This document shows, piece by piece, positions 9,629 through 27,676 of a DNA stretch of 64,000 bases. Source of the stretch: Deltaproteobacteria bacterium. GTDB taxonomy: Bacteria > Myxococcota > B64-G9. Each line of letters begins with the position of its first letter. The stretch's first letter is position 1. The stretch spans positions 1 to 64,000 of the forward strand of contig JAFGRB010000211.1 in NCBI GenBank assembly GCA_016935365.1, given 5' to 3'. The notes under the pieces were generated by a model that was not told the origin of the DNA, ran no database searches, and saw only the letters and a list, made by a program, of their open reading frames with translations. The position numbers and the translations under genes were made by a program.

Positions 9629-10600
9629 ATGGGTAACGTGCTCGTCATCGCCGAACACAAGGACGGGACGCTTAAGAAAGTGAGCCTGCCCGCGTTTGCG
9701 TTCGCTCGGGACTATGTGGGCAAGCAGGGCGGTGAGTTCCACATCCTGGTTGCGGGTTGCAACGTGGGCACCGTGGCCGACGAGTGCCTCTGCTACGGGG
9801 CTGCCAGGGTTCACGTGGCGGATCACGAGAGCCTCAAGAACTATCTGTGCGAGAGCTACACGCCGGTCGTCGTCCAGGTCGCCAAGGACATGAACGCCGA
9901 GGTCGTGGCCGCCACGACCACCGCCATCGCCAAGGACCTCCTGCCCCGCGTGGCGGCCCGGATGAAGGCCGGCATGGCTTCCGACGTGACCGCCATCACC
10001 GACAAGGGGCACTTCGAGCGCCCGGTCTGGGCCGGCAACGCCATGGTGGATGTGGAGATCACGACCCCGGTCAAGGTGGCCAGCGTCCGCGGCACCGAGT
10101 TCGAGCCGGCGCCCAGGCAAGACGCCGCCGGCGAGAAGGTCGACGTCTCCGTGGACGTGGATCTGGGCGCGCTGAAGAAGCGCTTTCTCCAGTTCGAGGA
10201 GATCAAGTCCGATCGTCCGGAGCTGACGGAGGCGGCGGTCATCGTCTCGGGTGGCCGGGGGACGAAGGGCGACGAGGGCTTCAAGCTCATCGACAAGCTG
10301 GCCGATCTGCTGGGGGCCGCGGTGGGCGCGACCCGGGCCGTGGTCGATGCGGGCTGGCAGCCAAACGATCTCCAGGTCGGCCAGACCGGCAAGGTGGTCG
10401 CCCCGGATCTCTACTTCGCCATCGGATTGTCGGGCGCCATCCAGCATCTGGCGGGCATGAAGGGCTCCAAGGTCATCGTGGCCATCAACAAGGACGAGGA
10501 GGCGCCCATCTTCACCGTGGCCGACTACGGACTGGTGGCCGACCTCTTCAAGGCCGTGCCCGAGCTCGTCGAGGAGATCCAGAAGGTCAAATCGGCCTGA
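9629..10600 (+). CDS. etfA: Electron transfer flavoprotein alpha subunit
   Basis: 323 residues, with GGAAAGGAGAG upstream of the ATG. The C-terminal FAD-binding half is complete: [52 protein letters not shown] and [10 protein letters not shown]. There is no N-terminal ferredoxin domain, unlike the EtfA of the Acetobacterium lactate dehydrogenase complex. Partner of EtfB; the pair is followed by FAD-oxidase and Fe-S genes. Confidence 0.94.
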
Positions 10601-12068: not shown

Positions 12069-13375
12069 GACGCTCGGGGAGGTGGCGGACGGAGGCCTGG
12101 ATCCGAGACGAGCTCACGCGCTGTGTACGCTGCGGCAACTGCATGGCGGTCTGTCCGGTCTACGAGTTGCTGCGCGAGGAAGGCGCGGTGGCGCGGGGCA
12201 AGATCGCGCTCGTGGAGGCGCTCGCCGCGGGCGACCTCGAAGACGACCGGCACGCGCGTCATTTCCTGACCGCCTGTCTGCTCTGCGGCCGCTGCAAGAG
12301 CGCCTGCCCCAACGAGGTCGACACACCCGCCCTGGTCCAGTACGCGCGGGCTCGTCTCGCGCGCCGGTCTTGGCTCAAGCGCTGGTCATTGGGCCGCTTG
12401 CTCCCGGCGCAGCGTCTGCTGCCGCGTCTGCTCCGCGCCGCGAGGGCGATCCGGCTTTTGTGGGCGCGGAGGATCCCGGGCTCGAGCGGGCTGCACATCC
12501 GTTTCTCGCGCGGGGCCGACGGCCAGCGCAGGCGGATCCCGCCTCTGGTGCGGCCCTTTTTTCTGGATCGCGATCACCCTCCGCCCAAAGGCGAAGGGCC
12601 CGAGGTGGCCTTCTTCGTCGGCTGTGTGCACAATTACATGCGGCCCGAGTCGGCGCAGGCGGCCATCGATGCGCTCAGCGCGCTGGGTGCGAGGGTGCAC
12701 GTGCCTGCCGGTCAGGCCTGCTGCGGGCTGCCGGCCTGGGGCGCAGGCGAGAGCGAAGGCGCCCGCAAGCTCGCTCGCCGCAACCTGGAGGCGCTCGCAC
12801 CGGCGGGCGAGATGCCCGACTTCGTCACGTCCGTGTGCGCCTCGTGCGCATACATGCTCCGCTTTCACATGCATGAGCTGCTCGAGGCAGAGCCGGGCCT
12901 GGCCGAGCGGGCCCGGATGCTGATGAGCAGGGTGCTCCCCTTCTCAATGCTCTGGTCCCGGCTGGCGGGCTTGGACCGGGAAGGTGCTGGACGGCAGCGC
13001 AATGGCTCGCTGCTGACCTACCACGACCCCTGCCATCTCTCGCGGGCCTTCGGGGAGAAGGCCGCTCCGCGTTTTCTCCTGACGCGGCTTCGCGACAGGC
13101 GCTTCGTGGAGATGTCCCATCCATGTCGCTGCTGCGGGCACGGGGGCGTGTTCAATCTCGCCCATTTCGAGCTCTCGGCCGCCATGGCCCGGGACAAGGC
13201 GCGCAGGGTGAGGGAGAGCGGTGCGAGCGTCGTGGTCACCGAGTGCTCCGGCTGCCTCTTGCAGCTGAGCGAGGCGCTGGCGCAGGCAGTGCCGGCTGTG
13301 GAGGTCTGGACGACCGCCGAGGCGCTGGCCAGGTGCGGTGTCGAAGAAGCCGATCTCGGGCAGGGAGAGGATTGA
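12065..13375 (+). CDS. GlcF-type Fe-S oxidoreductase with two CCG domains
   Basis: 436 residues. GTG at 12065 overlaps the GlcD stop (GTGA). Two 4Fe-4S motifs lie near the N-terminus, CVRCGNCMAVCP and CLLCGRCKSACP. Two cysteine-rich CCG domains follow, the first with CCGLPAWGAGE and the second with CRCCGHGG plus the downstream CSGC. This is the GlcF/LutA/heterodisulfide-reductase-subunit layout. It likely forms the electron-transfer partner of the preceding FAD subunit, at the membrane or with ETF. An intergenic promoter (13398-13426) separates it from the next gene. Confidence 0.88.
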   Translation: MRRSGRWRTEAWIRDELTRCVRCGNCMAVCPVYELLREEGAVARGKIALVEALAAGDLEDDRHARHFLTACLLCGRCKSACPNEVDTPALVQYARARLARRSWLKRWSLGRLLPAQRLLPRLLRAARAIRLLWARRIPGSSGLHIRFSRGADGQRRRIPPLVRPFFLDRDHPPPKGEGPEVAFFVGCVHNYMRPESAQAAIDALSALGARVHVPAGQACCGLPAWGAGESEGARKLARRNLEALAPAGEMPDFVTSVCASCAYMLRFHMHELLEAEPGLAERARMLMSRVLPFSMLWSRLAGLDREGAGRQRNGSLLTYHDPCHLSRAFGEKAAPRFLLTRLRDRRFVEMSHPCRCCGHGGVFNLAHFELSAAMARDKARRVRESGASVVVTECSGCLLQLSEALAQAVPAVEVWTTAEALARCGVEEADLGQGED

Positions 13376-13480: not shown

Positions 13481-14095
13481 ATGGCAAAAAAGACTTCGAA
13501 AAAAAAGGGGAAAAAGGCCATCAGGCGCGCCGTCAAGAAGGCGGTCAAGGCGGTGAAGAAGGCCAAGAAGAAGACCGGCAAGAAGCCTGCCAAGAAGGCT
13601 GCCAAGAAGCCTGCCAAGAAGGCTGCCAAGAAGGCTGCCAAGAAGGCTGCCAAGAAGCCTGTCAAGAAGGCTGTCAAGAAGGCGGTCAAGAAGGCGGTCA
13701 AGAAGGCTGCCAAGAAGGCCGTCAAGAAGGCCGTCAAGACCGTCAAGTCCAGGCCCAGCCCGAGGAAGGCCGGCAAGGCAGCGCCGACGAGGCCCGCAGC
13801 CAAGAAGCCGCGCGCGGTTCCGTTCTCGCTCGATTCCCGGCTGGCCCGTCAGAAAGATGTGGCCTGGCGCCTGATCGATGGCGAGGCGGTGATCATCACG
13901 CCGGCAGACAGCACCATGCACACCCTCAACGACACGGGCACGCGCATCTGGGAGCTCATCGACGGCAAGCGGACCGTGCGCGACGTGGCCCGGGCCCTGC
14001 AGGCAGAGTTCGAGGTCGAGTCGGAGCGCGCCCAGGATGACGCGCTCTGGTTCGTCGAGTGCCTGGCCAAGAAGGGCCTGATCGAGGGCAGCTGA
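13481..14095 (+). CDS. PqqD-type peptide-recognition protein with H1-like lysine-rich N-terminus
   Basis: 204 residues. Residues 1-112 are almost only Lys, Ala, Val and Pro in KKA-A/V-KK-type repeats, as in histone-H1-like nucleoid proteins. Residues about 123-203 form a complete PqqD domain: WRLIDGEAVIITPADSTMHTLNDTGTRIWELIDGKRTVRDVA followed by FEVESERAQDD and a final helix ending KKGLIE. PqqD domains are RiPP recognition elements that grip a precursor's leader and present it to radical SAM or other modifying enzymes. A precursor-like peptide, a kinase and a radical SAM gene follow at 21.2-24.0 kb. The fusion to a DNA- or polyanion-binding-like tail is unusual. I used ATG 13481, with GAGGG just upstream and the KAAKK region in frame. 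Confidence 0.85.
   Translation: MAKKTSKKKGKKAIRRAVKKAVKAVKKAKKKTGKKPAKKAAKKPAKKAAKKAAKKAAKKPVKKAVKKAVKKAVKKAAKKAVKKAVKTVKSRPSPRKAGKAAPTRPAAKKPRAVPFSLDSRLARQKDVAWRLIDGEAVIITPADSTMHTLNDTGTRIWELIDGKRTVRDVARALQAEFEVESERAQDDALWFVECLAKKGLIEGS
13529..13744 (+). repeat. In-frame KAAKK/KAVKK coding repeat
   Basis: A tract of AAGAAGG-CTGCC and AAGAAGG-C(T/G)GTC units of 12-15 bases encoding the lysine-rich half of the PqqD fusion. Near-identical units make the length prone to change by slippage or assembly error. Confidence 0.8.
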
Positions 14096-14113
14096 ACCCG
14101 GTCTCACGCTCGA

Positions 14114-14143
14114 TTGATTTTCTCGACAGACTGAGAGTAGTAT
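14114..14143 (+). promoter_or_regulatory. Possible internal promoter before the giant lipoprotein gene
   Basis: TTGATT (14114-14119) and TAGTAT (14138-14143) with an 18-base spacer lie in the 99-base gap before ATG 14195. This is a moderate match. It could be read together with, or instead of, the promoter at 13398. Confidence 0.35.
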
Positions 14144-14194
14144 GGGGGGCACTGAGGGGGCTCTACCGTGCTCCTTGGCGGGAGGTTCGAGATC

Positions 14195-17100
14195 ATGAAG
14201 CTATCGAAAGTGTTGTGGATATTCGGCTTGCTTTCCTTGCTGGGTTCGAGCGCCTGCGATTGCGACGGTGACGCGGAGAACCCGTGTGACTGCGAACCCA
14301 CGATCACCTTCCTCAGCCCGACCGGCGGCGCGTTGACGGAGTTCAACGACACCAACGAGACCGAGGAGGGGATCCAGTACCCGGTTCGCATTCAACTTCG
14401 CTGTGTGCCCGACGGCACGTCCCTGACCTTCACGAACAGCCTCTCGCCGGGTGAGACGGTCCGCCGGGATGTATCCGACGGCGACGGCGATGGAGAGAGC
14501 AGCATCGAGTACGGCGAGCTCACCTTTCTCGACGGAGTCAACCGGATCTGCGTGACCGGCAGCGTCGAGGTCGCCTGGATGGAGGACGGGAGCCTGGGCT
14601 GCTCGACCCGGAGCGTACCCGAACTGGAGATCTGCAAGGACGTGACCGTACAGCTCGGCGTACCGGCTTGCCGTTTCGAGAATCCAGAGGATGGATCCAC
14701 GCTCACACAAGCGGATGACGACGATCCGATCGCGGCCGGCTTCCAGCAGGACGTGGCGGTCGTCTGCAAGGGCGTCGACGATGGACAGGATGTCGAGCTG
14801 AGCATCAACGCCAGGCCGCCCATCACGGGCGTGCTGGCCTTTTCCCGCGTCGACTTCGACAGCGTCGATCTGGCCGAGGGGGCCGATCTTTTGCACCTCG
14901 AGACCCAGGGCCAGGGCGGCGAGAGTGTGATCGCCGAGATCGGAGTGACCGTGGACACGGGCGGGTGCGCGGTCCGGCTAACCCCCATGGGCGGCGTCAC
15001 GTTCCGGGCCGCGGATGACGAGGAGCCCGGCGTCGAGGGCTTGCAGATCAGCCTGACCGTCTCGACCGATCCGGTCGGGGCCTTTGCCTGCGCGGATGGG
15101 AGCGCAGTCCGGGTCATCGTCGATGGACAGGAGTTCCAGGGCGTGCTTTCCGACGGGACGGCCATCGTGCTGGCCACTTTGCCGGACGGTGAGATCGAGG
15201 CCTTTGCCGAGGTGGAGGAGGCGGGTGGACGGACAGGGCGCTCGCTCGTCAATCGCTACTTCGTCTGCGCCTCTCCGGTCGAGGTGTCCATCCTGTCGCC
15301 GAGAGACGATCCCGATCACTCCACGCCCATCACCGATGCGGCGGATCGCGACCCCGCTCCGGGTATCCAGATCGCGGTCCGCGGGAATACCTCCGGGGTG
15401 CCGGACGCCGAGCGAATGTGGCTCAAGCTGGACGAGCGGATCGTCATGGACGGGCTCGATCCGCTTCGCCCGGTGGCCTTCCAGCCGGGCGGGGAGTACG
15501 AGTTCCGCTACCTCTCCTTCCTGCAGCCGGGCGAGCACGTCGTGAGCGTGGAGGGTGAGGACGCGTGCGGAGAGCGGGCCGCGATCAGCTCTACGGTCTG
15601 GGTGGTGACCGCCCAGGTCACCTGCCAGGTGGTGGACCCGGCCGACGGATCTACGCTGCTTGCAGCCGACGACAAGGACGGCGATCCGGATAACGACCTG
15701 CAGTATGACGTCGGTGTGCTGACCGCCAACGTCAGCGGCGGTGGCACATTCGAGATCCTCGTCGACGGCACGACCTTCGGTCCCTTCCCGGTGGACACGG
15801 ACACCCAGAGCGGGATGGGGGAGGTGCGCTTTGTCGATGGTCAGGGCATCAGCGTCCAGTGCCTGCTCTCGAGCGGAGAGGCCTCGCCCACCAACCGGAT
15901 CGATGTGGACGGCCATCCGCCGACGATCGAGATCACGGATCCTGCCGGAGGGGCGACTTTCCAGGATCCTGCTCAGGCGGTGTGCGTAGAGACGACCGGC
16001 GTGGAGAATGGGCAGCTCGTCACCGTGCTCGTGGAGCAGGGGGCGAGCTCGGACAGCGTCTCCGCCAGCATCACCGGCAACCAGGTCTGCATCGGCAACG
16101 TGCCCTGGTTCAGCGGTGCCAACACGGTCACGGCCAGCGTGAGCGATGCGGCCGGCAACCCGGCCGAGAGCACTCCGCTGGATGTGACCTACCAGTCCTG
16201 CACGGCCGAGCCGCAGATCACCTTCATCAACCCGGACCCGACCCCGCCGGTCGAGATATCGAATGCAGGTCCGTACACCGTCGAGGTCGACGTGACCGAG
16301 GTGCTCGACGCGCACGATGTCGAGCTGGTGATCGTGACCAACGGCGTGCCGGCCCAGCCCGTCACCCCGAACCGCTTCGGGGGCGGCCGGGCCGAGTTCG
16401 ACGTCGTGCTCGCCAATGGCAGCATCCAGTTCCAGGTGAGCGCGACCAACTTCTGCGGCACGGGCCAGGAGCAGCTGGATGCGCTCGTGGGCGATCCCAA
16501 CCTCCCGAGCATCGCCATTTCCTCGCCGGCGGACGGCGATTGCTCGCAGACCTCGACCGTGAGCGTGAGCGCCCAGACCACCAACGCCGACTCCCGGGTC
16601 TGCCTGTTCTGCTTCCGGCCGCGCTCGGCCGACGCGATACCCGAGTGCAGCCTGGCCACGCCGGGCTTCTGGACCACGGGTGCGGTCGACGGCGCGGGCG
16701 TGTGCAGCTCCCAGATCGACGCCCAGTTTCCGTCCGAGGGTGACTTCCAGATCTGGGCCAGCGTGTCCAATGACCACGGCAGCTCGACCTCGCCCGCGGT
16801 CGGCTACCGGATCGACGCCACGCCCCCGACGGTGAGCATCGACGAGCCTTCTGCCGGTGCCGTGTTCAACGCGTCGAGCCCCGACGCGGTGCCGGGCGGG
16901 GAGCTTCAGATCCGGGTCGTGGTGAGCGCCGACGTGCGCGACGGGCTGACGGCGGAGCTCACCGGCCACGACGGGATCGGAGACAGCCCGATGCCGGTCT
17001 TCTCGGGTGGGCAGATCACGTTCCAGCGGGTGACCGTGACCGACGGAGACCACAGCCTCGAGGCCCAGGTGACGGACTGCGCAGGCAACACCGGCGCATC

Positions 17101-20100
17101 CATTCCGGTCCAGATCACGGTCGACCGGATCGAGCCGGAGGTCATCGCGCTCGTCCCGGCCGACGGCAGCGCTTTCAGCGTGGCCGGCGACCAGGGCCTC
17201 GGCACGCCGGGCTTCCAGCGCAACGTCACCTGCCAGTTCGCTGCCGGCAGCATCCAGCAAGGCGACGCGCTGAGCCTGACGCGCCAGATCCAGGGGGTGG
17301 ACCCGACGCCGGTCGAGGTGGCCAGCGCCAGCCTCAACGCGGGCGAGACCAGCCGGAGCCTCGGGCTCGTGACCCTGCTGCCGCCTCCGCACAGCCACGG
17401 AAACCTGCGCCTCGTCTGCTCGGTGACGGATGCAGCGGGCAACGCAGGCTCGATCTACTCGGACATTCGGATCGACCTGGACGCCCCCGAAGTGGACATC
17501 ACCCGGCCGACCGACGGAGCGCAGCTCAACCGCTCGTGGGACATGTGCGCCCCGGCCGGCTTTCAGACCCAGGTCAACGTGAGCGTGACGAACATCGAGG
17601 CCGGGGACACCCTCTACCTGTGCGTGTGCGATCCGAGCGGCCCGAGCTCGTGCTCCAACGACGACGCGGGAGCATGCGGGGATGCGGGCTACGGGCGGAC
17701 GGTCACGCCCGGCAGCGTGGGCGGGCCCGGCACGGTGACGCTCAACTGCGTGGACATGCCCCAGGGCGACGTCCGATTGCGAGCCTACGCCGAGAACATC
17801 CCCGGCCAGGGCCAGTGGTCGGCGCCGGTGGCGGTCTACGTGGACTCGCTGCCGCCCACGGTGGCGACGCGGACCATCCTGACAGGCAACGGCGACGACT
17901 GCCTCAACCAGTCCGAGGGCGGCTTGCATGTCCGCCTGACCGTGGACGACCAGGGCAACAGCCTCGACGGGCGCACGGTGCGCCTGTACGAGGACTGGCC
18001 TCCGGGCACGGCGCTGCCCGGCGCGAGCGGGACGGTCGCGGGCGCTACGGTCGATCTGAGCGCCAGCCTGGTCTCCGGTGTGCACGTGCTGACGGCGGTC
18101 TTCTCGGACGCGCTCGGCAACCCCAACATGAGCACATCCCCGCCGATCACCGACCCCAACGCCACCTTCACGGTGACCGTGGATACAGCAGCGCCCGTCA
18201 TTTCCATTTCGAGCCCGAACAAGACCTTGCTGAACCTCTCCGACGACCTGATCTCGGGCGGGGATCTGGACTTCAACTTCTGCGTGAGCTGCTCGGGTGT
18301 CGAGGACGGCCAGGTGGTGACCTTCCTGCCGATGAACGCCACGGCCGCGGTGGCGGACGGCGCGGCCTGCGTGCAGACCTCCATCCCCGAGGGGGACACG
18401 CTGCTCGAGGTCCAGGTGCGAGACGCCTGCGGCAACCCGGAGCCCGGCTGGGCCACCGACCAGCTCGCGGTGCGTGCCGACCTGACTCCGCCTACGATCA
18501 GCTGCAATCCGCCCCCGGCGCAAGACGCTTACTACACGGATACCTCGGTCCACTTCATATGCCAGACCACGGGCACGGATTCGACCCAGCGGATCCAGGT
18601 GGTCTCGACCCAGGGCGGCCCGCGCTGCAGCCCCTACGTGGACGGCTCGGGCACGACCGACTTCTACTGCAACCTGCAGCCCGGGGTCCAGGACCTGGAC
18701 GTCACCGTGACCGATCCGGCCGGCAATGTGTCCGCGCCCTGGCAGAGCACCAATCTGGAGGTCGACATCGCGGGCTGCGACCTGGACGTGCTCGGTTACC
18801 TGCCGGTGGAGATTTTCAACGCCGCCGACGACAAGGACGCGGATCCATCGAACGGCCTGCAGATCGACGTGCAGGCCTGTAGCTCGACCTGCACCGGCAG
18901 CGACGTGCCCACGCCCGTGGTGCGGCTGCGGGTGAGCGGCGGGCTGGTCCAGACCAAGGACCTGGGCGCCGACGGCACGCCCGAGTGCGTGACCTTCTTC
19001 GATGTGAGACTGGACGACGGCGCAGCCGGCGTGGACGTGGAGGCCGAGATCGACGACGGTGGGGGGCACCTGTTCCCCGACGGCTTCCAGGTGGAGATGG
19101 TCGATCTGCTGCCACCGACTCTCGAACGCCTGGCCCCGGGCGAGGACGACGTGCTGTGCGTCGCCAGCCAGGGCAACCCCTCGGCCAACGGCGTGGACAT
19201 CCTCGCCGACCTGTCGACCGGTGCGCCCTGCAACATGGCCTTTGGCTTCCGGGTGACCGACGGCGGCGATCCGACCTACCCGGGCAGCCTTTCGCTGCGC
19301 GAGGGCGCGGACACCCGCGCGGGCCCGACCAGCATCACCGGCGTTCCGTCCCAGAACGTGAACTGGCCCAACGTGGCCCTGACCCACAATGCGAGCCATG
19401 CGCTGCAAGCCGTGGCGACCGACTACGCCGGCAACCCGAGCGTGATCGATCTGAGCGTGATTGCGGACGTGGTCGCGCCGGGCACGGTCAACGCCAGCGC
19501 CGCACTGGAGGACGAGCTGGTCGATCCCGCGGCCAGCCGCCACGCGGATGTGCTGGTGAGCTGGAGTGCGGTAGGCGACGACGGCGCGGACGGCACACCT
19601 GCGGGCTACGAGGTCCGCTACGCCACCGCGCCGATCAGCAGCGAGGCCAGGTGGCAGACCGCGGTGCCCGTCTACTCGGGCCCGAGCACCAGCCCGCCGG
19701 TCTTCGAGGGCTGGCCGCCGCTCAACACCTACTCCATCGCGGTCCGGGCCGTGGACGAGGTGGGCAACTACGGCGCCATCCCATCGCTCTCGCTCGCCAA
19801 CTACTGGCGGACTCACACCGTGGTGGCGCCGGGCGAGGGGGGCTACTTCGCCTATGGGCTTTGGAGCATCGGCGACGTGGATCACGACGGCTACGCCGAC
19901 CTGGCGGTCGGCGCGCACACCGAGCTCACGGGCGGCGGTGGCACGGATGGGGGCGCGGTCTACGTGTTCTACGGCCAGGACGACCTGAGCGCCTGGAGCG
20001 CGGGCCAGCGGCTGAGCAACGACACGGCCAGCGAGAAGTTCGGCTCCGACGTGGGCCGCATCGGCGACATCAGCGGGCCCGAGACCTGCGCGGGAGACGA

Positions 20101-21157
20101 CCAGGCCCGGATCGACGACTTGGTCGTCAGCGGGCGAGGGTACGGCAGCGGCCAGGGTCGGGTGTCGATCTACTTCGGCCGATGCCTGGCCAGTCTGCCT
20201 GCGGCGCCCGACATCGAGATCCGCGGCAACGTGGCCGGAGACCTCTTCGGTTACTACTCCGAGATGATCGGCGACGTGGACGGCGACGGCATCGACGACC
20301 TGCTCGTCAGCGCGCCGACCGCGAGCGCCGCGGGCAATGCTTATCTCTTCTTCGGGCGCTCCCAGGCGGACTGGGTGGCGGATAGCGGAGGAGACCGGGT
20401 GCTGTCCGCATCGGATGCCGATGTCGTGATCGTGGGCCGGGACGCGGAGGACTGGTTCGGCTACGCGAGCGGGATCAGCACGCTCGGCGACCTGGACGGT
20501 GATGGAATGTCCGAGTTCATCGTCGGTGCCAGCTCGGTCAACGACGCCTTCCTCTTCGATGGCCAGACCATCTATCTGGAGACCCAGACCGGCGACGGGA
20601 CGGCATACGCGGCTGCCGACAACCTGGCCATCTTCCACGAGGGTCCAAGCGGCATGTACAGCGGCTGCGATCCATACTACTTCTGCGTGGGTTTCGGCAA
20701 CCGCGCGGTGGGCAACGCGGACTTCGATCACGACGGATTGCCCGATCTGGCAGTTGCCGCCGCCTACTTCGAAAAGGTATACTTGTATCCCGGGGTGGCC
20801 GGAGGAGTCGACGATGTCGCTTTCAAGACGATCAACTCGACCGAGGGAAGCGTGTGGTTGGGTTGGGAGCTCGTCGTCGAGGATGTGAACATGGATGGCT
20901 GGCAGGACATCGCGCTGGGCACGAACACCTCGAACGGCCACAAGGCCATCTTCTACCTCAACCGGGGGAGCGCTCCCGAGTACTTCGGCAACTCACCGGA
21001 CATCGTCTTGAGCGAAGACAGCGAGTACTACGGGATTTCGATCGCGGTGGACGACTTCGACAGCGACGGATTGCCCGACGTGATCATCGGGAGCAACATC
21101 GCGGTCGACGCGGGTGGCGGTGACATGCGGGACGGGATGTTCTATCTGCACTACTGA
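14195..21157 (+). CDS. Giant surface lipoprotein: Ig-like repeats plus FG-GAP propeller
   Basis: 2320 residues from ATG 14195, with GGAGG 9 bases upstream (GTG 14168 would add nine residues). The leader ends GSSAC with Cys21, a lipobox. More than ten Ig-like/cadherin-like modules follow, many starting P-x-I-x-I-x-x-P and carrying an ADDxD...GxQxDV signature. A fibronectin-III-like segment comes next. The last ~450 residues contain FG-GAP/integrin-type calcium loops such as DVDHDGYADLAVG, DVDGDGIDDLLVS, DLDGDGMSEFIVG, DFDHDGLPDLAVA and DFDSDGLPDVIIG. An extended adhesin-like or matrix role on the cell surface is inferred. It lies between the PqqD fusion and the precursor-like peptide on the same strand, 46 bases before the latter. 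Confidence 0.85.
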   Translation: MKLSKVLWIFGLLSLLGSSACDCDGDAENPCDCEPTITFLSPTGGALTEFNDTNETEEGIQYPVRIQLRCVPDGTSLTFTNSLSPGETVRRDVSDGDGDGESSIEYGELTFLDGVNRICVTGSVEVAWMEDGSLGCSTRSVPELEICKDVTVQLGVPACRFENPEDGSTLTQADDDDPIAAGFQQDVAVVCKGVDDGQDVELSINARPPITGVLAFSRVDFDSVDLAEGADLLHLETQGQGGESVIAEIGVTVDTGGCAVRLTPMGGVTFRAADDEEPGVEGLQISLTVSTDPVGAFACADGSAVRVIVDGQEFQGVLSDGTAIVLATLPDGEIEAFAEVEEAGGRTGRSLVNRYFVCASPVEVSILSPRDDPDHSTPITDAADRDPAPGIQIAVRGNTSGVPDAERMWLKLDERIVMDGLDPLRPVAFQPGGEYEFRYLSFLQPGEHVVSVEGEDACGERAAISSTVWVVTAQVTCQVVDPADGSTLLAADDKDGDPDNDLQYDVGVLTANVSGGGTFEILVDGTTFGPFPVDTDTQSGMGEVRFVDGQGISVQCLLSSGEASPTNRIDVDGHPPTIEITDPAGGATFQDPAQAVCVETTGVENGQLVTVLVEQGASSDSVSASITGNQVCIGNVPWFSGANTVTASVSDAAGNPAESTPLDVTYQSCTAEPQITFINPDPTPPVEISNAGPYTVEVDVTEVLDAHDVELVIVTNGVPAQPVTPNRFGGGRAEFDVVLANGSIQFQVSATNFCGTGQEQLDALVGDPNLPSIAISSPADGDCSQTSTVSVSAQTTNADSRVCLFCFRPRSADAIPECSLATPGFWTTGAVDGAGVCSSQIDAQFPSEGDFQIWASVSNDHGSSTSPAVGYRIDATPPTVSIDEPSAGAVFNASSPDAVPGGELQIRVVVSADVRDGLTAELTGHDGIGDSPMPVFSGGQITFQRVTVTDGDHSLEAQVTDCAGNTGASIPVQITVDRIEPEVIALVPADGSAFSVAGDQGLGTPGFQRNVTCQFAAGSIQQGDALSLTRQIQGVDPTPVEVASASLNAGETSRSLGLVTLLPPPHSHGNLRLVCSVTDAAGNAGSIYSDIRIDLDAPEVDITRPTDGAQLNRSWDMCAPAGFQTQVNVSVTNIEAGDTLYLCVCDPSGPSSCSNDDAGACGDAGYGRTVTPGSVGGPGTVTLNCVDMPQGDVRLRAYAENIPGQGQWSAPVAVYVDSLPPTVATRTILTGNGDDCLNQSEGGLHVRLTVDDQGNSLDGRTVRLYEDWPPGTALPGASGTVAGATVDLSASLVSGVHVLTAVFSDALGNPNMSTSPPITDPNATFTVTVDTAAPVISISSPNKTLLNLSDDLISGGDLDFNFCVSCSGVEDGQVVTFLPMNATAAVADGAACVQTSIPEGDTLLEVQVRDACGNPEPGWATDQLAVRADLTPPTISCNPPPAQDAYYTDTSVHFICQTTGTDSTQRIQVVSTQGGPRCSPYVDGSGTTDFYCNLQPGVQDLDVTVTDPAGNVSAPWQSTNLEVDIAGCDLDVLGYLPVEIFNAADDKDADPSNGLQIDVQACSSTCTGSDVPTPVVRLRVSGGLVQTKDLGADGTPECVTFFDVRLDDGAAGVDVEAEIDDGGGHLFPDGFQVEMVDLLPPTLERLAPGEDDVLCVASQGNPSANGVDILADLSTGAPCNMAFGFRVTDGGDPTYPGSLSLREGADTRAGPTSITGVPSQNVNWPNVALTHNASHALQAVATDYAGNPSVIDLSVIADVVAPGTVNASAALEDELVDPAASRHADVLVSWSAVGDDGADGTPAGYEVRYATAPISSEARWQTAVPVYSGPSTSPPVFEGWPPLNTYSIAVRAVDEVGNYGAIPSLSLANYWRTHTVVAPGEGGYFAYGLWSIGDVDHDGYADLAVGAHTELTGGGGTDGGAVYVFYGQDDLSAWSAGQRLSNDTASEKFGSDVGRIGDISGPETCAGDDQARIDDLVVSGRGYGSGQGRVSIYFGRCLASLPAAPDIEIRGNVAGDLFGYYSEMIGDVDGDGIDDLLVSAPTASAAGNAYLFFGRSQADWVADSGGDRVLSASDADVVIVGRDAEDWFGYASGISTLGDLDGDGMSEFIVGASSVNDAFLFDGQTIYLETQTGDGTAYAAADNLAIFHEGPSGMYSGCDPYYFCVGFGNRAVGNADFDHDGLPDLAVAAAYFEKVYLYPGVAGGVDDVAFKTINSTEGSVWLGWELVVEDVNMDGWQDIALGTNTSNGHKAIFYLNRGSAPEYFGNSPDIVLSEDSEYYGISIAVDDFDSDGLPDVIIGSNIAVDAGGGDMRDGMFYLHY

Positions 21158-21203
21158 GGTATCGATCCGGTTCTTCGCGAGGACGGATCTGCAGGAGGTG
21201 GCC

Positions 21204-21353
21204 GTGAAGGCGGAAGAAAAACGCAGGATGCCCTACAAGAAACCGAGACTGGAGTCGAAGGTCATCCGGATGATCATGCACACCTACTCAACGACCGTGA
21301 GCTCCATCGGGAGATACGGTCCCTTCCGGGAGTCACCGAGGCGCGAGCCCTAG
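21204..21353 (+). CDS. Candidate RiPP precursor peptide (49 residues)
   Basis: A small gene starting at GTG 21204 behind a strong GCAGGAGGTGGCC ribosome site and ending 4 bases before the kinase gene. The N-terminal part is charged and contains PYKKPRLES (Y11-x-x-P14-x-L16). The YxxPxL pattern is the leader motif bound by PqqD-type recognition domains in lasso-peptide precursors. The C-terminal part, roughly residues 20-49, contains HTYSTTVSSIGRYGPFRESPRREP. This offers Ser/Thr for a kinase and Arg37, Arg42, Arg46 and Arg47 for an arginine methyltransferase. Gly36 and Glu43 are spaced for an eight-residue lasso ring, but no lasso cyclase gene is in the window. Coding status is inferred from ribosome site, motif and context. 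Confidence 0.68.
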   Translation: MKAEEKRRMPYKKPRLESKVIRMIMHTYSTTVSSIGRYGPFRESPRREP

Positions 21354-21357
21354 ACCT

Positions 21358-22080
21358 TTGCACAGACCTTTGCTTTTTTCCTTCCACGCCTGTGGACTAC
21401 CCTGCGAGCTTCATTGCGGGCCGTCGCTCGATGAGGCGGTTGCCTTCATGCTGGCGCCGTTTCGCGTCGCCATCTCCGGCGGCTACCAGCTGGATCTGAT
21501 ACGGGATCCCCAGACCGAAACGGAGCGCGTTCGCACGCTCGGCCGGAGCGCCACGCAGATCCAGCTCGGCCTGGGCAGCGACAGTCCCGCCCTGGTGTCG
21601 GCTGCGCTCGGCATGCTGCTCGTCCACGCCCTGGGACAGAACGGGGGGCTGCTGCTGCACGGCGCTTTCATGCTGCGAGATGACAGGGCTTTTCTCTTCC
21701 TCGGGCGGAGCGGCGCGGGCAAGTCGACCGCAGCGCGAAACGCTCGAAGCCTGATCTGTCTCCACGATGACAAGGTCGCGGTGCGATATGTCCGCGGATG
21801 CTGGCGGGCGTTCGGTGTGCCGATGCTCGACAACCGGGGACGGCCTGGAAAGCCCGGCAGCGCGCCGATCGATGGCCTGTATTTCGTACGCAAGAGCGAT
21901 ACGCTCGATCTGGTCGAGCTTCGGGGGGCCGAGGCGGTTGCCGAGCTCGCCGAGAATGTGATTCTACCGGCCGAGTACCGGCATCGCCGCGTGTTCGAGA
22001 CGGTCATGGCGCTCGCCGGGGAGGTTCGCTCGAGCTTGCTGCGCTTCACGAGAGACTCCCGGATCGATTCGCTTCTATGA
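21358..22080 (+). CDS. HPr-kinase-like (HprK-related) P-loop kinase
   Basis: 240 residues. LLLHGAFM, the Walker A motif GRSGAGKST (116-124) and LHDDKVAV follow the pattern of HprK C-terminal kinase domains. Such kinases occur in RiPP clusters, including those that phosphorylate a serine on lasso-peptide precursors (PadeK/ThcoK type), and in the PqqD-associated HPr-rel-A type systems. No PTS HPr gene is nearby, so a peptide substrate is more likely than HPr. TTG 21358 is the first possible start after in-frame stops and leaves 4 bases to the precursor gene; ATG 21448 would drop a conserved-looking N-terminus. The next gene starts inside its stop (ATGA). Confidence 0.78.
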   Translation: MHRPLLFSFHACGLPCELHCGPSLDEAVAFMLAPFRVAISGGYQLDLIRDPQTETERVRTLGRSATQIQLGLGSDSPALVSAALGMLLVHALGQNGGLLLHGAFMLRDDRAFLFLGRSGAGKSTAARNARSLICLHDDKVAVRYVRGCWRAFGVPMLDNRGRPGKPGSAPIDGLYFVRKSDTLDLVELRGAEAVAELAENVILPAEYRHRRVFETVMALAGEVRSSLLRFTRDSRIDSLL

Positions 22081-23990
22081 CAGACGCGATGCTCACAGAC
22101 GAGCCCCTTTTCCGCTATCGGACAATCACGCTGCTCCCGAGCCTTCTCTGCAAAGCGCGCTGTCCGCACTGCTGTATTCCGCTCGAGATGAGGACGAGAG
22201 ACGACTACGATCCGCGCGTGATCGAAGCTATCTTCTCGTCGATGCCGACGGGCCTGCGCTCGGTGACGCTCTCGGGCGGTGAGCCCTTCGACGCGCCCGA
22301 GCGCCTGCTCGCCCTGGTTCGGCGCGTCTCCGATTCGGGATGCGACTGTCACGCGGTCACGAATGGGCGATGGATTGAAGACCCAGCACGAGGTAGGGAG
22401 TTGCTCGCGGAGGCTGCGCAAAGAGGTCTTGCGGGGCTTGCGCTGAGCGTGGACGCCTACCGCGAAATGCTGTCGCTGGAGTCGGTGAGCAGCCTGGTGC
22501 GCGATTGCCAACGGCACGGAGTGGAGATCGTATTCAAGGGCGTCGGGAGAGCATCTCGGCGGATGATCGAGCGCTACTGTGATGCTGCGGGGCTCGATTT
22601 CGACCTGGCCGTCCAGTCGATCTCCGACCTGGAGCGAGCTGGAACCGCAGCGAGCCTCCGCGCGGATCGGATCGGGGGGCCCCGGGGCGAGGGGTGCTTC
22701 CATGTCGCGGAGCCCGCGATCTACATGGACGGAAGCGTGCTCATCTGCTGCTCGGTTCATCTGTTCCAGGGCTGCGATGCCCTGCTGCTCGGGCGAGTCC
22801 TGGACGAGCCGCTCGACGCGATCCTGGATCGGGCCAGTCGCGACTTCCTGCTGGCCGCCTTGGCCTTTCTCGGCCCTCGGGCGTTGCGGTGGCTCGCGGG
22901 CAGGCGTGCGATGCCCGGGCGTAGCAGCTGCCGGGTTTGCATGGCCACGCTGGGAGATCCGGCGCTCGTGGCCGCCGCGCGCCGGAAGATCGCCGGCGAC
23001 CGGGCGCTTCGCAGGGATCTTGCAGGCCGCAGCATGCTGTTTTCACACTTTCTGGACCGAGAGATCCAGCAGGAGCCCATTGCGAGCCGCTACGCGACCG
23101 CCCAGGAGCACCAGCGCCTGCTGGCAGACGAGCTGCGTACCGGCGCATATCGGAAAGCGATAGAGTCGGTCGTACGGCCCGGAGACACGGTGCTGGATCT
23201 GGGCTGCGGTGTGGGGATCCTGGCGCTGTTTGCAGCCCGGGCGGGGTGCCGGCGGGTGATCGCGGTCGAGAGGGAGAGCATCATCGACCAGGCCCGCGAG
23301 GCCGCACGGCGGGCTGGCCTGGCAGAGAAGATCGACTTCGTGCAGCAGGACGCGATGCGGCTCGAGCTCGATGCGCGCGCGAGCGTACTGGTGCACGAGC
23401 AGATCGGCTGTTATCTGTGGGACGAGGGTCTGGTGCCCAAGCTGGCTCGCGCCCGCAGGGACCTGCTCGAGCCGGGTGGGCGCATCTTGCCCTTCCGGAT
23501 CGATCTCTTCCTGGCGCCCTGCGCCCACCGCTCCGAGCTCGAGGCCGGCTTGGACTTCTGGGCCGAGCCTCGCTATGGCTTCGACTTCCGGCACATGGCG
23601 CAGCGCCACTTCGCCGAGCTCTCCTGGAAGGCCGGCCGGCCGCTGGTGATCGAGCTCGACGACGAGTCCTGCTTTCTGGCCGAGCCTGCGCTCGTCCACA
23701 GCATGGACCTGCGCGCGGAGTACATCACGCCGGACAGGATCGAGGCGCGCTTTTCGCTTCAACCCGGGGCCGAGTGCACCGGCATGTGCGGCTTCTTCCG
23801 CGTCCAGCTCACCGAGACGATCTCGTTCTCCACCGGCCCGAGGCCCGGCCCCAACAACTTCGGCCAGATCTTCATCCCCTGCGCGCGGCGGATCCGAGCG
23901 CCGCAGGGGGGCGAGCTGCGATTCGTGCTCTGCCCCGCACGTCTCCCCGAGCACTGGCGCTGGGAGTTTCAACTGCAGGAGGCCTCGTGA
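22077..23990 (+). CDS. Radical SAM/SPASM-like enzyme fused to a PRMT-like methyltransferase
   Basis: 637 residues. The N-terminal radical SAM domain has CKARCPHC (Cys25, Cys29, Cys32; CX3CX2C) and LSGGEP (66-70). A SPASM-like Cys set follows (Cys207, Cys224/225, Cys233, Cys285, Cys288). Residues about 335-637 match protein arginine methyltransferases. EHQRLLADELRTGAYRKAI is followed by SAM motif I VLDLGCGVG (372-380), a double-E loop with Glu441 and Glu450 (HEQIGCYLWDEG), and a C-terminal barrel. In that barrel the usual THW position reads NNF. The inferred role is radical modification and N-methylation of the nearby peptide. Starts in an ATGA overlap with the kinase gene and ends in a GTGA overlap with the next. 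Confidence 0.85.
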   Translation: MTDAMLTDEPLFRYRTITLLPSLLCKARCPHCCIPLEMRTRDDYDPRVIEAIFSSMPTGLRSVTLSGGEPFDAPERLLALVRRVSDSGCDCHAVTNGRWIEDPARGRELLAEAAQRGLAGLALSVDAYREMLSLESVSSLVRDCQRHGVEIVFKGVGRASRRMIERYCDAAGLDFDLAVQSISDLERAGTAASLRADRIGGPRGEGCFHVAEPAIYMDGSVLICCSVHLFQGCDALLLGRVLDEPLDAILDRASRDFLLAALAFLGPRALRWLAGRRAMPGRSSCRVCMATLGDPALVAAARRKIAGDRALRRDLAGRSMLFSHFLDREIQQEPIASRYATAQEHQRLLADELRTGAYRKAIESVVRPGDTVLDLGCGVGILALFAARAGCRRVIAVERESIIDQAREAARRAGLAEKIDFVQQDAMRLELDARASVLVHEQIGCYLWDEGLVPKLARARRDLLEPGGRILPFRIDLFLAPCAHRSELEAGLDFWAEPRYGFDFRHMAQRHFAELSWKAGRPLVIELDDESCFLAEPALVHSMDLRAEYITPDRIEARFSLQPGAECTGMCGFFRVQLTETISFSTGPRPGPNNFGQIFIPCARRIRAPQGGELRFVLCPARLPEHWRWEFQLQEAS

Positions 23991-24940
23991 GCGCCTCGGT
24001 GGCCAGGGAGAAAGGCATCGAGAAGCGTGCGGGCGGGGATGAACCCCGCCCCTACGATGCCAGGGAGCCCTTTGTGATCCTGCCGGACGAGGCGGGCGTG
24101 CTGCTCTCGGATCCGGGACTGCTGCAGCTCGCGGACGAGCTCATCGCAGTGGGCGCTTGCATGGAGCCCGAGCTCCTGTGCGGGGACAGGCTCGAGCTGG
24201 AGCGCGTCGAGCGGGTGGAGCCGGGCTGGATCGCGGTCTTCGAGTGGCAGGGAAGGTTGTATGCCCATCGCGTCACCCGGGTTCGCGGGCGGCGATTCTG
24301 GGCGAGCGGCGACTCGCACCGGGGCGAGCAGGGGCCGGTGGACATGGCCGCGCTGCGGGGCCGGGTCGTGGCGGTAAGGCGCGATGGCGAGAGGCAGCGG
24401 ATAGCCAGTGGACTCGCGGGCCGGATCCGGGGCGGGCCGATCAAGGAGCTTCGTATGCTGGTCCAGCGCCACGCGAGCCTGCGACGGCTTGCAGAGAAGA
24501 TCCTCGGCAGTCCGGTGATCCAGATCGGCCTACGAGCCTGCCTGGGTGGGGTGCGTATCCAGGCGGAGCGCGATCCGGATCGGCTGCTCGCCATGGCCAC
24601 CTCGGCCGGCTTTCGGCTCTCGGAAGATCGGGTGCGGGAAGGGCAGATCAGAGCTTGCAGTGCGTGCGCTCGCCGGGCGAGCCGGCTAGGCTGGATCGTG
24701 GGCTGCGAGATCGAGCCGGACGCCATCGCGGCGCGGCTCTTCGTCCGCCCGCTCGCCCGGGGGCTGGGCTTGCAGCCGCAGCTTGTCAGCAGGCTCGAGG
24801 AGGTCGCCCAGCACGCCGGGCGCGGGTACTTGCTGCTCGCAAGTCCGACACCGGGCTACAGGCCCTTGCGCGAGGCCGAGCGCCGGAAGTGGCAGGGGCT
24901 TGACGGTGAGGGCTGGACGGTGAGGGAGATGACGAGATGA
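23987..24940 (+). CDS. S24/S26 peptidase-like protein with altered nucleophile and GNAT-like tail
   Basis: 317 residues from GTG 23987, which overlaps the previous stop and has CAGGAGG upstream. Residues about 50-130 resemble the S24/S26 (LexA/signal peptidase) core: GACMEPELLCGDRLELERV, AVFEWQGRLYAHRVTRV, ASGDS and a closing GRVVAV. In the canonical G-x-S-M-x-P box the serine is Cys58, and no obvious catalytic Lys is seen (HRVTRV, His94). Residues about 200-310 faintly resemble a GNAT acetyltransferase (ARLFVRPLARGLGLQPQL...A..AG.GYLLL). Either a modified leader peptidase or a non-catalytic binding domain is possible. Coupling to the radical SAM gene suggests a role in peptide maturation. 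Confidence 0.6.
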   Translation: MSASVAREKGIEKRAGGDEPRPYDAREPFVILPDEAGVLLSDPGLLQLADELIAVGACMEPELLCGDRLELERVERVEPGWIAVFEWQGRLYAHRVTRVRGRRFWASGDSHRGEQGPVDMAALRGRVVAVRRDGERQRIASGLAGRIRGGPIKELRMLVQRHASLRRLAEKILGSPVIQIGLRACLGGVRIQAERDPDRLLAMATSAGFRLSEDRVREGQIRACSACARRASRLGWIVGCEIEPDAIAARLFVRPLARGLGLQPQLVSRLEEVAQHAGRGYLLLASPTPGYRPLREAERRKWQGLDGEGWTVREMTR

Positions 24941-26649
24941 GGTCTGCGGTCTTGTTGCTTTCGATTCTGCTCGCGGCCTGTGATGGCGAATCGATCGAGC
25001 TGGTCCTGGATTCCGACTTCAAGCTGCTGCGCCACGACCTGAAAGACCCGGGGCGCTACGAGCAGGCCCTGAGCCTGCCTCCGACCTGGGGCCGAGCAGG
25101 CCGCTGGTTGCCGGATGCGAGGCCGTGGCAGCTGCTGCCCACCGGGACCACGCGCGCCCCTGGCCAGGCGAGCGAGATCCGCGTCCAGCTCGTCCTCGAT
25201 CCAGCGGCGGGCAGCTTGACGGGCCGTGCGGAGCTTGTGCTGGGCTCGGAGGACGAGGACATCGCCAGGGTCGAGCTGCTGCTCTCGGCCGCGGCCATCG
25301 ACGAGCTCGATGCGCAGGCGCCCGATGCGAGCTTCGAATACCGGCAGGGCCGGCTGATCATCTCGCCCACGAGCCCCGTGCCGGCCGGCCAGAGCTGGCC
25401 CATCGCGGTGGAGTGGCACGACCAGGACATCGAGCTCTACGTGGACGACTTTCCCGAGCAGGGCGGACGGGTGCTCGCCAACCGCCTCTCCGCCGAGGGC
25501 TCCTTCTTCAGCTACGGCTACTGGTACTGGCCCGTCTTGATCGGCCAGGCGCGCTTCGAGGGGATCGAGATCGAGGTCACCTTTCCCGACTCGATGACCC
25601 TGGTGCTGCCAGGAGAGCTCGTCGGATCGCAGGCGAATGCGGACAGCACGCGGAGCGAGCGCTACCGCTTCGACACACCGCATCAGGGCGTGATCCCGCT
25701 CGCCTTGGGCTCATACGAGCAAGTGGCCGGCGCCTGTGGAGACGCCGTGCTCGAGCTTTACGCCCTGCCGGGCTCCAGCTCCGACGGCTACCCGATCGTG
25801 CCGGCCACCTACGTGCCGATCCTGGAGGCCATGTGCGAGGACTACCGGTCGCGATTCGGCGAGCCGGCCTTCGGGGTCTTGCGCTTTGCCGGTGTGGACG
25901 AGGCGTTCGAAAACGGCTTTGCCGGACCGGGCTTGACCCTGGTGCCCAACTACGTCTGGGACGATGACGGCAGCGGCTCGTTCATCAAGCGCGACTTCTA
26001 TCTGGCCCACGAGCTGTCGCACACCTGGTGGGGCAACGAGGTCTTCGTGGGCGCCTCGCGAGACCTGTGGCTGCTCGAGGGCATGGCCGACTACTGCGCG
26101 GCCAGCTGTCTCACGAAGCTCCAAGGCGAGCAGGCCGGCAGCTGGACCTGGCGCTGGGAGGTGCAGCCGTTGCTCGAGCACTACACTGCGGGTGGCGCGG
26201 ATCACCCGCTGGTGCCCGACGAGGCCATCGACATGGAGCCGCGCATCTACTACATCAAGGGCGCCTGGGTCCTCAGGATGCTCGGTACGATCATGGGCGC
26301 GGAGGATCTCGATCGGCTCTTGCTGGAGATCCAGGACGCGCACGCCTTCGATGAGCTCGAGACGGAGCAGCTCACCCAACGCGCTGCCGAGATCGCCGCC
26401 GAGGACCTGGACTGGTTCTTCGAGCAGTGGTTGCGCGGCACGGGCATCATCTCAGTCCGGGAGGAGCACCGCGGTTTGGATGGCGACCGGCTGGAGTGCA
26501 CGGTCACCCAGCGTGCCGTCTGGGCCACCGGGCCAGAGCGCTACTTCCAGATGCCCATGGACGTCAAGGTCGAGCATCAGGGCCGAGAGCACCAGGAGAC
26601 GGTCTGGCTGGAGGGCGTGCGCGCGGTCTTCGAGCTGCCCGTGCCCTGA
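24937..26649 (+). CDS. Lipid-anchored M1-family metallopeptidase
   Basis: 570 residues. The leader ends LLAAC with Cys15 (lipobox), so the enzyme should sit outside the cytoplasmic membrane. Zinc ligands are His358 and His362 in HELSHTWWG with Glu359 as base, and Glu381 in LLEGMADY, the M1 spacing of about 19 residues. FENGFAGPG (324-332) sits where aminopeptidases have GAMEN. An ATGA overlap with the S24/S26-like gene means it is translationally coupled to the putative RiPP cluster. It could trim the exported product or simply be a co-expressed scavenging aminopeptidase. Confidence 0.83.
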   Translation: MRSAVLLLSILLAACDGESIELVLDSDFKLLRHDLKDPGRYEQALSLPPTWGRAGRWLPDARPWQLLPTGTTRAPGQASEIRVQLVLDPAAGSLTGRAELVLGSEDEDIARVELLLSAAAIDELDAQAPDASFEYRQGRLIISPTSPVPAGQSWPIAVEWHDQDIELYVDDFPEQGGRVLANRLSAEGSFFSYGYWYWPVLIGQARFEGIEIEVTFPDSMTLVLPGELVGSQANADSTRSERYRFDTPHQGVIPLALGSYEQVAGACGDAVLELYALPGSSSDGYPIVPATYVPILEAMCEDYRSRFGEPAFGVLRFAGVDEAFENGFAGPGLTLVPNYVWDDDGSGSFIKRDFYLAHELSHTWWGNEVFVGASRDLWLLEGMADYCAASCLTKLQGEQAGSWTWRWEVQPLLEHYTAGGADHPLVPDEAIDMEPRIYYIKGAWVLRMLGTIMGAEDLDRLLLEIQDAHAFDELETEQLTQRAAEIAAEDLDWFFEQWLRGTGIISVREEHRGLDGDRLECTVTQRAVWATGPERYFQMPMDVKVEHQGREHQETVWLEGVRAVFELPVP

Positions 26650-26772
26650 GCGGATCGGCCTGCAAGCACCTGCAAACCCTGACTTTCATGCCTTACCTGC
26701 AGCGCTCGGGCCCTGCGCGACCCGGATGCAAAGCACTTGTTTTTCGAGCGACTGGGGCTGCAGTTGCATTTC

Positions 26773-26788
26773 GGGCACAGAACTTGCT
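26773..26788 (+). promoter_or_regulatory. Sigma-54 promoter
   Basis: GGGCACAGAACTTGCT matches the consensus TGGCAC-N5-TTGCT at all but the first base, with the required ten bases between GG and GC. Predicted transcription start near 26799, 17 bases before ATG 26816. The 166-base gap upstream could hold an enhancer; CTGCAA-GCAC-CTGCAA occurs at its start, but no clear palindrome was seen. Confidence 0.7.
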
Positions 26789-26815
26789 TTTCGATTGAAT
26801 TCGTAGGAGGCGACC

Positions 26816-27091
26816 ATGTGGTACCGGGTCGTGAGAATTCTCTGTCTTGCCTTGCTCGTGTCGTTCGTCCTGGTCGGCTGTGCTGCGATGGAGGATCCCG
26901 GAGACTACGACGGCGTGTGCTATGACTGCCGGACGGTCTGCTTCGGGTGCACGGATCAGGTTCTGGATCTATGTCTGGGTGATTGCCACGCATGCCAGGG
27001 CTACTCGGACTGCTTTGGCTGGCTGGAGAACCGCTACGATGGCATGCAGCTGGTGATGGCAGACTGGCTGGCTGTCGACTGCGACCGCTGA
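26816..27091 (+). CDS. Small Cys-rich lipoprotein
   Basis: 91 residues, with TAGGAGG before the ATG. The signal ends VLVGC (Cys22). The mature chain has regularly placed cysteines: CYDCRTVCFGC, then CLGDCHACQGYSDC and a final C. The pattern suggests a disulfide-rich or metal-binding fold outside the cell. It is unlike any family I can name. A sigma-54 promoter lies directly upstream, so expression is probably tied to an enhancer-binding regulator. Confidence 0.78.
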   Translation: MWYRVVRILCLALLVSFVLVGCAAMEDPGDYDGVCYDCRTVCFGCTDQVLDLCLGDCHACQGYSDCFGWLENRYDGMQLVMADWLAVDCDR

Positions 27092-27136
27092 TCGAGCCTT
27101 GAATCCCGCCCCCGCCCCTGGCATCCTGGCGATGAC

Positions 27137-27676
27137 ATGACGCGGCTCGAGGCATTCCTGCTGCTTCGGCGCTCGGTTCGCGAGCGGGAGGTGATCCGCC
27201 GCGGCCTGGCGTGCGAGGCGCTCATGGAGGGCCTGGCGATGCACTTCGCGGCCGACCGGGCGCTCTGGGCCCTGGCCGGACTGGTGGTCGAGCTGGACCA
27301 CGATCTCACCTGTTCCAACCCCAGGCGCTGCGGTGCTGTGGCGGCCGAGATGCTCCAGGCAGAGGGGCTGGAGACGGAGCTCGTCGAGGCCGTGCGCACG
27401 AGGCGCCTGCCGGGTCCTCACGATGCCTTGCTGACCCGCGCGCTGGCCGCAGCCGAGTGCGCGTCTGCGGTGGCGCTCGACATGGCAGACAGCAAGGCCG
27501 AGCTGGGGGCTTGCACCGCAGCGGATCTGGTGCGGGCCCTGGACGACGGGTCGGTGGCGCCGGAGGCCAGCCGGACACGGATCCGCACGCTCGAGGGAGA
27601 TGGGCTCGCGATCGAGCAGCTCTTCGGCTTCGCACTGGATGCGCTCCGAGCGGCAGCTGACGACCTGTACGACTGA
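27137..27676 (+). CDS. HD-domain-like protein
   Basis: 179 residues, mostly helical. LAGLVVELDHDLTCSNPRRCGAVAAEMLQAEGLETELVEAVRTR resembles small HD/HDIG-type hydrolases (LHDLDYDLT...H...GAEIL). The first metal-ligand His-Asp pair is shifted or degenerate (ELDHD) and the later His is Arg/Cys. Phosphohydrolase activity is therefore doubtful. It follows the Cys-rich lipoprotein by 45 bases and converges with the methyltransferase gene. Confidence 0.5.
   Translation: MTRLEAFLLLRRSVREREVIRRGLACEALMEGLAMHFAADRALWALAGLVVELDHDLTCSNPRRCGAVAAEMLQAEGLETELVEAVRTRRLPGPHDALLTRALAAAECASAVALDMADSKAELGACTAADLVRALDDGSVAPEASRTRIRTLEGDGLAIEQLFGFALDALRAAADDLYD

Follow-up and report, generated by a model that had tools for sequence, protein, structure and literature searches.

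What does a bacterial locus make when it sets a RiPP-type recognition domain, an HprK-like kinase and a radical S-adenosylmethionine (SAM) enzyme beside a giant lipoprotein? The question is raised by a 64,000-nucleotide stretch of DNA, here called the window (positions 1 to 64,000, forward strand, of contig JAFGRB010000211.1, our contig C343), from the 7.7 Mb genome of a deltaproteobacterium of the phylum Myxococcota (GCA_016935365.1). An initial annotation had read positions 13481 to 26649 as a putative locus for a RiPP (ribosomally synthesised and post-translationally modified peptide). Comparison with a set of 195 genomes of the phylum (G numbers denote genomes, G000 being that of the window, and f numbers families) supports this reading, with three amendments that concern an enzyme fusion, the giant lipoprotein and a peptidase. 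A short open reading frame (ORF) with a conserved leader lies beside the enzyme genes, and we infer that the locus produces a modified peptide. Its genes are as follows.

13481-14095, plus strand: PqqD-type RiPP recognition element (RRE) with a Lys/Ala-rich N-terminal tail
14195-21157, plus strand: giant lipoprotein of 2320 residues, with lipobox LGSSAC, bacterial Ig-like domains and C-terminal FG-GAP repeats (Pfam Big_13, FG-GAP)
21193-21198, plus strand: ribosome-binding site AGGAGG of the peptide gene, read from the sequence
21204-21353, plus strand: precursor peptide of 49 residues with a GTG start, leader YKKPRLESKVI, a Thr/Ser run and C-terminal RYGPFRESPRREP
21358-22080, plus strand: HprK/PEPCK-fold kinase with Walker A motif GRSGAGKST and a TTG start (exact start uncertain)
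22077-23990, plus strand: radical SAM enzyme of the EpeE/YydG epimerase type (residues 1-335) joined to a methyltransferase of the protein arginine methyltransferase (PRMT) type (about 336-637), from profile and structure matches
23987-24940, plus strand: S26/Sec11-like peptidase domain (C58-H94-D109) with a C-terminal GNAT domain, from profile and Foldseek matches
24937-26649, plus strand: M1-family metallopeptidase (HELSH...E), a lipoprotein

All genes named in the initial annotation are present on this single strand, and the overlaps of four bases that it described from kinase to M1 are exact at all three junctions (ATGA at 22077-22080, GTGA at 23987-23990, ATGA at 24937-24940), as is the gap of four bases between the end of the peptide gene at 21353 and the kinase start at 21358. 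Its list omitted the 2320-residue lipoprotein gene and the GNAT domain.

Each of its family assignments also bears inspection. The PqqD domain scores over the Pfam cut-off (PF05402, E 4e-19) and matches RRE structures (TbiB1 5v1u, 1e-6; 9x8z_B, 8e-6, a 'PqqD family protein' that we provisionally take to be the RRE of the LPP system discussed below), marking it as a putative leader-binding protein. Its N-terminal tail of about 110 residues (window 13481-13800), Lys/Ala-rich and histone H1-like, is shorter in G001 and missing from family f27 and G189. The kinase has no Pfam match over the cut-off; its AF2 model (pLDDT 90) has a Foldseek match (6e-9) to PEPCK, whose fold is also that of HprK, and it has orthologues in the relatives. 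The S24/S26-like protein, at E 0.047 in Pfam when taken singly, reaches the catalytic subunits of Sec11 signal peptidases (2e-6) and GNAT (4.5e-5) with a profile of five sequences; its nucleophile is Cys or Ser across relatives and its His and Asp are invariant, while the GNAT half is matched by PF00583 in G189 and absent in f27. The peptidase annotated as an exported M1 enzyme indeed belongs there (PF01433, 1e-18) and carries a lipobox.

The predicted CX3CX2C radical SAM enzyme with a methyltransferase domain proves to have the cluster C25-x3-C29-x2-C32 and a C-terminal half of class I PRMT type (PRMT6, E 7e-29), in which HEQIGCYLWDE aligns with the PRMT loop and supplies both of its acidic residues, nine apart; we regard it as a candidate arginine methyltransferase. 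The radical SAM profile matches the whole domain of Bacillus subtilis YydG (EpeE, structure 8ai6; E 7e-25 over 287 positions), and a CC pair aligns with that of YydG in 8/8 sequences of the EpeE type. EpeE inverts Val and Ile, with Cys223 as the proposed hydrogen donor (PMC8326336); the aligned pair would be C222/C223 on the assumption of a 25-residue tag in the YydG crystal construct.

The same arrangement recurs in relatives, whose domains were called from mechanically derived ORFs and profile searches, not from full annotation, and several of whose loci are cut by contig ends. Radical SAM, kinase and S24/S26 queries each match the same four contigs, from four other genera of the window's family (G001, G005, G006, G008), all in the order giant, small ORF, kinase, radical SAM, S24/S26; PqqD precedes this set and M1 follows it on contigs that extend that far. 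A single-protein contig scan with the radical SAM-PRMT protein returned no relative; an alignment-based scan added one named locus copy, that of G008 (JAAZNF010000103.1, Myxococcales bacterium AS27yjCOA_137). In all, five further genera of the window's family share the gene order, in one case split over contigs (the G007 contig ends after the peptide, and the S24 and M1 genes of that genome lie on another). Two other families share it as well, their radical SAM enzymes being of the same type; the radical SAM profile recovered complete loci with the small ORF in G093 and G094 (f27). Thus nine loci, those of the window, G001, G005, G006, G007, G008, G093, G094 and G189, have giant and then peptide in the same place, followed, as far as each contig runs, by the kinase, radical SAM and S24/S26-like genes, and PqqD is present in all loci whose contig extends to it. 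G051 (f23; L184 12355-12516, L040) keeps the order PqqD, giant, YxxP peptide, kinase, radical SAM, S24/S26 with a different, SPASM-like radical SAM enzyme and a core rich in Cys and Thr; about 1 kb beyond it, the opposite strand encodes a PRMT relative. In the body of papers searched, nothing relevant turned up on such a combination of genes in Myxococcota.

The giant lipoprotein belongs to this locus. Its gene, between those for PqqD and the peptide, is conserved with it and always adjoins the peptide; the window protein shares 39-48% identity with those of same-family loci (some partial) and 24-32% with those of other families, and homologues keep the same place in f8 and f27. The giants of relatives carry Ig-like and FG-GAP repeats, and a lipobox is present in all giants and M1 proteins examined for it. 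M1 occurs in G189 and in the same-family loci whose contigs extend to it, and profile searches detected none at the f27 and f8 loci; the gene is not universal to the locus. The PRMT fusion is confined to the window genome, the radical SAM protein being unfused in the locus relatives. We considered the PRMT as a defining gene and rejected it: among standalone PRMT relatives with surroundings fetched, only that of G051 (L040) lies near PqqD, kinase and S24 genes. Two smaller features adjoin the tail of the window locus.

26816-27091, plus strand: small Cys-rich lipoprotein, possible operon tail, with homologues directly 3' of M1 in G001 (L027) and G007 (L172)
27698-28573, minus strand: methyltransferase gene, with a 48% homologue between S24 and M1 in G005 (L025 10122-11099)

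Is the small ORF a real precursor? The initial annotation had pointed to a 49-residue peptide with a YxxPxL motif and a strong ribosome site, and both the YKKPRL leader and the AGGAGG site are there. A small ORF occupies the gap between giant and kinase in every one of the window, G001, G005, G006 and G008, and the alignment that the initial annotation had called for shows both ends conserved across genomes: these five peptides share Y11, P14, S18 and K19 and the tail G39-P40-x-R42-x-x-P45-R46-R47. Their profile, run over the 195 genomes, found two unseen peptides, in G007 (E 6.7e-15) and in G189 (E 8e-4), the latter from another family and placed exactly between giant and kinase. The precursor is conserved in eight other loci, 3' of the giant gene. 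Each of the nine gaps tested (G051 included, G007 not) holds a YxxP small ORF before the kinase, where chance would give one in 0.2-1.5% of cases per gap (dinucleotide shuffle). The G093 and G094 peptides differ with dN 0.19 and dS 0.80, rough values from few sites, and the ORF, conserved at leader and C-terminus and usually with its own ribosome site, looks to be under purifying selection. The initial annotation would have been given up had homologous loci lacked such a conserved YxxPxL-type ORF, or had kinase, radical SAM and PqqD genes not co-occurred elsewhere; the ORF is there, and the trio recurs across families.

Of the described systems, the closest is that of the linear polyphosphorylated peptides (LPP) of Paenibacillus alginolyticus, reported in 2026, with components LppA/B/K/S (PMC13381572). 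There the RRE LppB holds a YxxP leader, LppK phosphorylates core Ser3, which is residue 19 counted from the leader Tyr, and leaves a Thr mutant unphosphorylated, and the SipW-like LppS (S29/H68/D93) cleaves only with the RRE (PMC13381572). The window locus likewise has a YxxP leader, a discrete RRE, an HprK-like kinase and a SpI-like peptidase of Sec11/SipW type with S (or C), H and D, and Ser stands at Tyr+18 in five of the six peptides of its family, f1 (Thr in the sixth, from G006), a family-level conservation that rests on these six peptides. It adds a radical SAM enzyme, GNAT, the giant lipoprotein and M1, and its host is a member of the Myxococcota, not the Bacillota. Membership was rejected: of the motif YxxPxVLxHQxIxFETxxS, YxxP and the Ser spacing match while HQ and FET are absent, and neither an NTP transferase nor an MsbA-like exporter occurs among the scanned operon proteins. 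Other known classes fit less well. Phosphorylated, paeninodin-like lasso peptides share the YxxPxL-type leader, PqqD RRE and HprK-like kinase, but no Asn-synthetase-like cyclase (macrolactam synthetase) or B2 leader peptidase was found among the proteins of 13481-27676, and this membership was rejected. So was that of the epipeptides (EpeX/EpeE, formerly YydF/YydG), with whose EpeE structures the radical SAM enzyme aligns over its full length, CC pair included: the window locus has another precursor as well as an RRE and a kinase, and the enzymes score 36-86 bits against the curated YydG model, where the cut-off is 300. SynChlorMet (ScmC/D/E/F) and HPr-rel-A systems also combine an HprK-like protein with PqqD, and SynChlorMet a radical SAM enzyme; radical SAM type and precursor differ, and both were rejected (kinase against ScmC 31.6 bits, cut-off 125; HprK_rel_A 15.6 against 200 bits and PqqD_rel_X 19 against 35 bits). 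By analogy, the window locus would follow the scheme of LPP maturation, extended by an epimerase-like step.

The inheritance of the locus bears on its function. Upstream of the window PqqD gene lie the genes for the electron-transfer flavoprotein (PF01012, PF00766), a conserved neighbour that we do not claim as part of the pathway, and two further genes in an arrangement common to the window and G001.

8851-9597, plus strand: etfB
9644-10600, plus strand: etfA
10668-12068, plus strand: FAD-linked oxidase (PF02913), between etfA and PqqD
12089-13375, plus strand: CCG/4Fe-4S protein (PF02754), between etfA and PqqD

EtfA is matched in 178 of the 195 genomes, usually as one copy per genome, and PqqD lies downstream of etfBA on the same strand in G000, G001, G093, G094, G189 and G051. 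The stretch downstream of etfA in 41 genomes holds PqqD in 11 (G092, G130, G027, G015, G129, G097, G132, G128, G007, G004, G012), eight of which (G092 and seven of f8) have the order PqqD, giant, YxPP/YxxP peptide, kinase, S24/S26; for G129, the peptide comes from a separate reading, and G012, where no kinase was detected, is left out of the full-locus count. The peptides of these eight loci share the leader type (e.g. KKKVYSPPQVRSERILVPDLFTPSNC...), their giants have 25-29% identity to the window giant over 1,100-2,100 residues, and a radical SAM gene was not detected in them. The locus of G008 is not beside etfA, and most other surveyed genomes have no locus there. In the trees built for EtfA, the giant and the kinase, f1 and f27 come out as groups, and f8 does so for the giant and largely for the other two; distances correlate (Mantel p 0.0005 for the kinase, 0.02 for the giant). 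Together with the repeated place by etfBA, this family-wise grouping supports mainly vertical descent with losses, and radical SAM, M1, GNAT and PRMT as lineage-specific gains or losses. The same chromosomal place in so many relatives suggests an old, built-in function, not a recently acquired antibiotic.

From what is directly established, namely the presence and conservation of the genes, the precursor's included, the families assigned to their products, the repeated etfBA-linked position and the family-wise tree grouping, we infer a pathway in which every chemical step, the order of steps, export and the partnership with the giant are proposals. The PqqD RRE would bind the YxxPxxxSK/SE leader of the 49-mer and the kinase would phosphorylate a Ser/Thr just after it; given that the f1 peptides, with one exception, match the Tyr-to-Ser spacing of LPP Ser3, phosphorylation is predicted at Ser29 (Tyr11+18) and cleavage near residue 16 from the Tyr (His26). 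As judged from fold and conserved core, the EpeE-like enzyme would abstract a C-alpha hydrogen and return one from cysteine, inverting one or more core residues, the fused PRMT would, in the window genome only, methylate arginine in the conserved YGPxRxxPRR tail, and the GNAT domain may acetylate the product. The S26/Sec11-like peptidase, its substrate presented by the RRE, would cut off the leader, the M1 lipoprotein might trim or recycle the peptide, and the product would act at the cell surface together with the co-encoded giant. This full pathway, surface action included, is the account that we favour, with moderate confidence.

Several observations weigh against it. No product is known for the locus; the radical SAM scores fall far below the YydG cut-off; and PRMT stands at the locus in one genome only. 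G092 has a similar core and no radical SAM gene in the stretch read, which means that the enzyme may be dispensable for the core and which led us to reject a rule tying radical SAM presence to core type. The G006 peptide has Thr at the position where LppK spared a Thr mutant, the Ser position shifts outside f1 (f27 and G189 peptides have Ser/Thr at residues 20-22 from the leader Tyr), and the peptide conserves both ends whereas LPP cores vary. Finally, no ABC_membrane exporter lies near the locus in G000, G001, G008, G093, G189 or G051.

Alternatively, the small ORF may encode a protein partner or tag that, once modified, attaches to the giant, by binding or by a bond, and serves the envelope in a structural or sensory role. 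In every locus the giant gene comes first and the peptide gene after it, often with fewer than 50 nt between them, and the vertical pattern, the repeated etfBA neighbourhood and the lack of a nearby exporter point the same way. No shared motif or attachment site was found. This reading is compatible with the maturation steps above, and we consider it a real, if tentative, possibility. It is rather unlikely that the radical SAM enzyme makes some other C-alpha or side-chain bond in the core, such as a cross-link at the conserved Tyr/Arg, its likeness to YydG being one of fold only. The NCBIfam score below cut-off and the conserved aromatic and Arg residues of the core would allow this, and no epimerase fused to a methyltransferase is known to us, but among structures matched over the full length YydG leads by about 20 orders of magnitude, and all eight sequences keep the CC pair with the proposed hydrogen donor. 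Maturation of the peptide into a small cofactor with a redox or signalling role, in the way that PQQ arises from PqqA and mycofactocin from MftA, would suit the PqqD, radical SAM and peptidase genes and the adjoining EtfAB, FAD oxidase and FeS protein; we find it improbable, as the core is not of the PqqA/MftA type, several loci lack the radical SAM gene, kinase and GNAT are unusual for cofactors, and EtfA is a general gene. Least probable of all is that PqqD, kinase and S26-like protein act on the giant itself, their largest and constant neighbour, with the small ORF a leftover leader without its own product, given an ORF conserved at both ends, usually with its own ribosome site and apparently under purifying selection.

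Returning to the favoured pathway of a modified, surface-acting peptide, the largely family-wise trees, repeated neighbourhood and constant giant point to a built-in envelope function. We put forward, tentatively and as something that may well prove otherwise, that this is a mainly vertical Myxococcota system in which a kinase- and radical SAM-modified ribosomal peptide serves as a functional component of the giant surface lipoprotein with its Ig and FG-GAP repeats and not as a diffusible product, its genes tending to sit by etfBA and its core chemistry being exchanged by lineage. Such a locus contrasts with the many RiPP clusters of patchy occurrence, which are taken for weapons or signals. 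It would extend the LPP logic of RRE, HprK and Sec11-type leader peptidase beyond the Bacillota and join to it a radical SAM enzyme of epimerase-like kind. The locus also supplies a candidate for a bacterial PRMT with a peptide substrate, a subject (PRMT in RiPPs) on which the body of papers searched held nothing relevant.

Comparable leaders occur elsewhere. The window genome has three more PqqD genes (L033 C3, L034 C234, L035 C112), two of them with HprK-like kinase and radical SAM genes; at L034 11282-11479 a YEPPRI peptide with a Gly/Cys-rich tail has a close counterpart in G003 (L180 700-888). Genomes of f8 (L181, L182, L185) carry in another place the order S24, PqqD, large protein, peptide (YxPPAILWEQPFVALAQxSxCxIPGESEC) and kinase, without a radical SAM gene; the large protein is about 1,000-1,200 residues long, with beta-propeller repeats in both of those scanned. 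In WOR-3, Omnitrophota and Syntrophaceae records (L093, L122, L129, L135), YxxP/KP leaders followed by long Cys-rich repeats lie near PqqD/radical SAM genes, the L135 enzyme resembling ScmF (343 bits, cut-off 400), and HprK-like genes are close by in most of the four.

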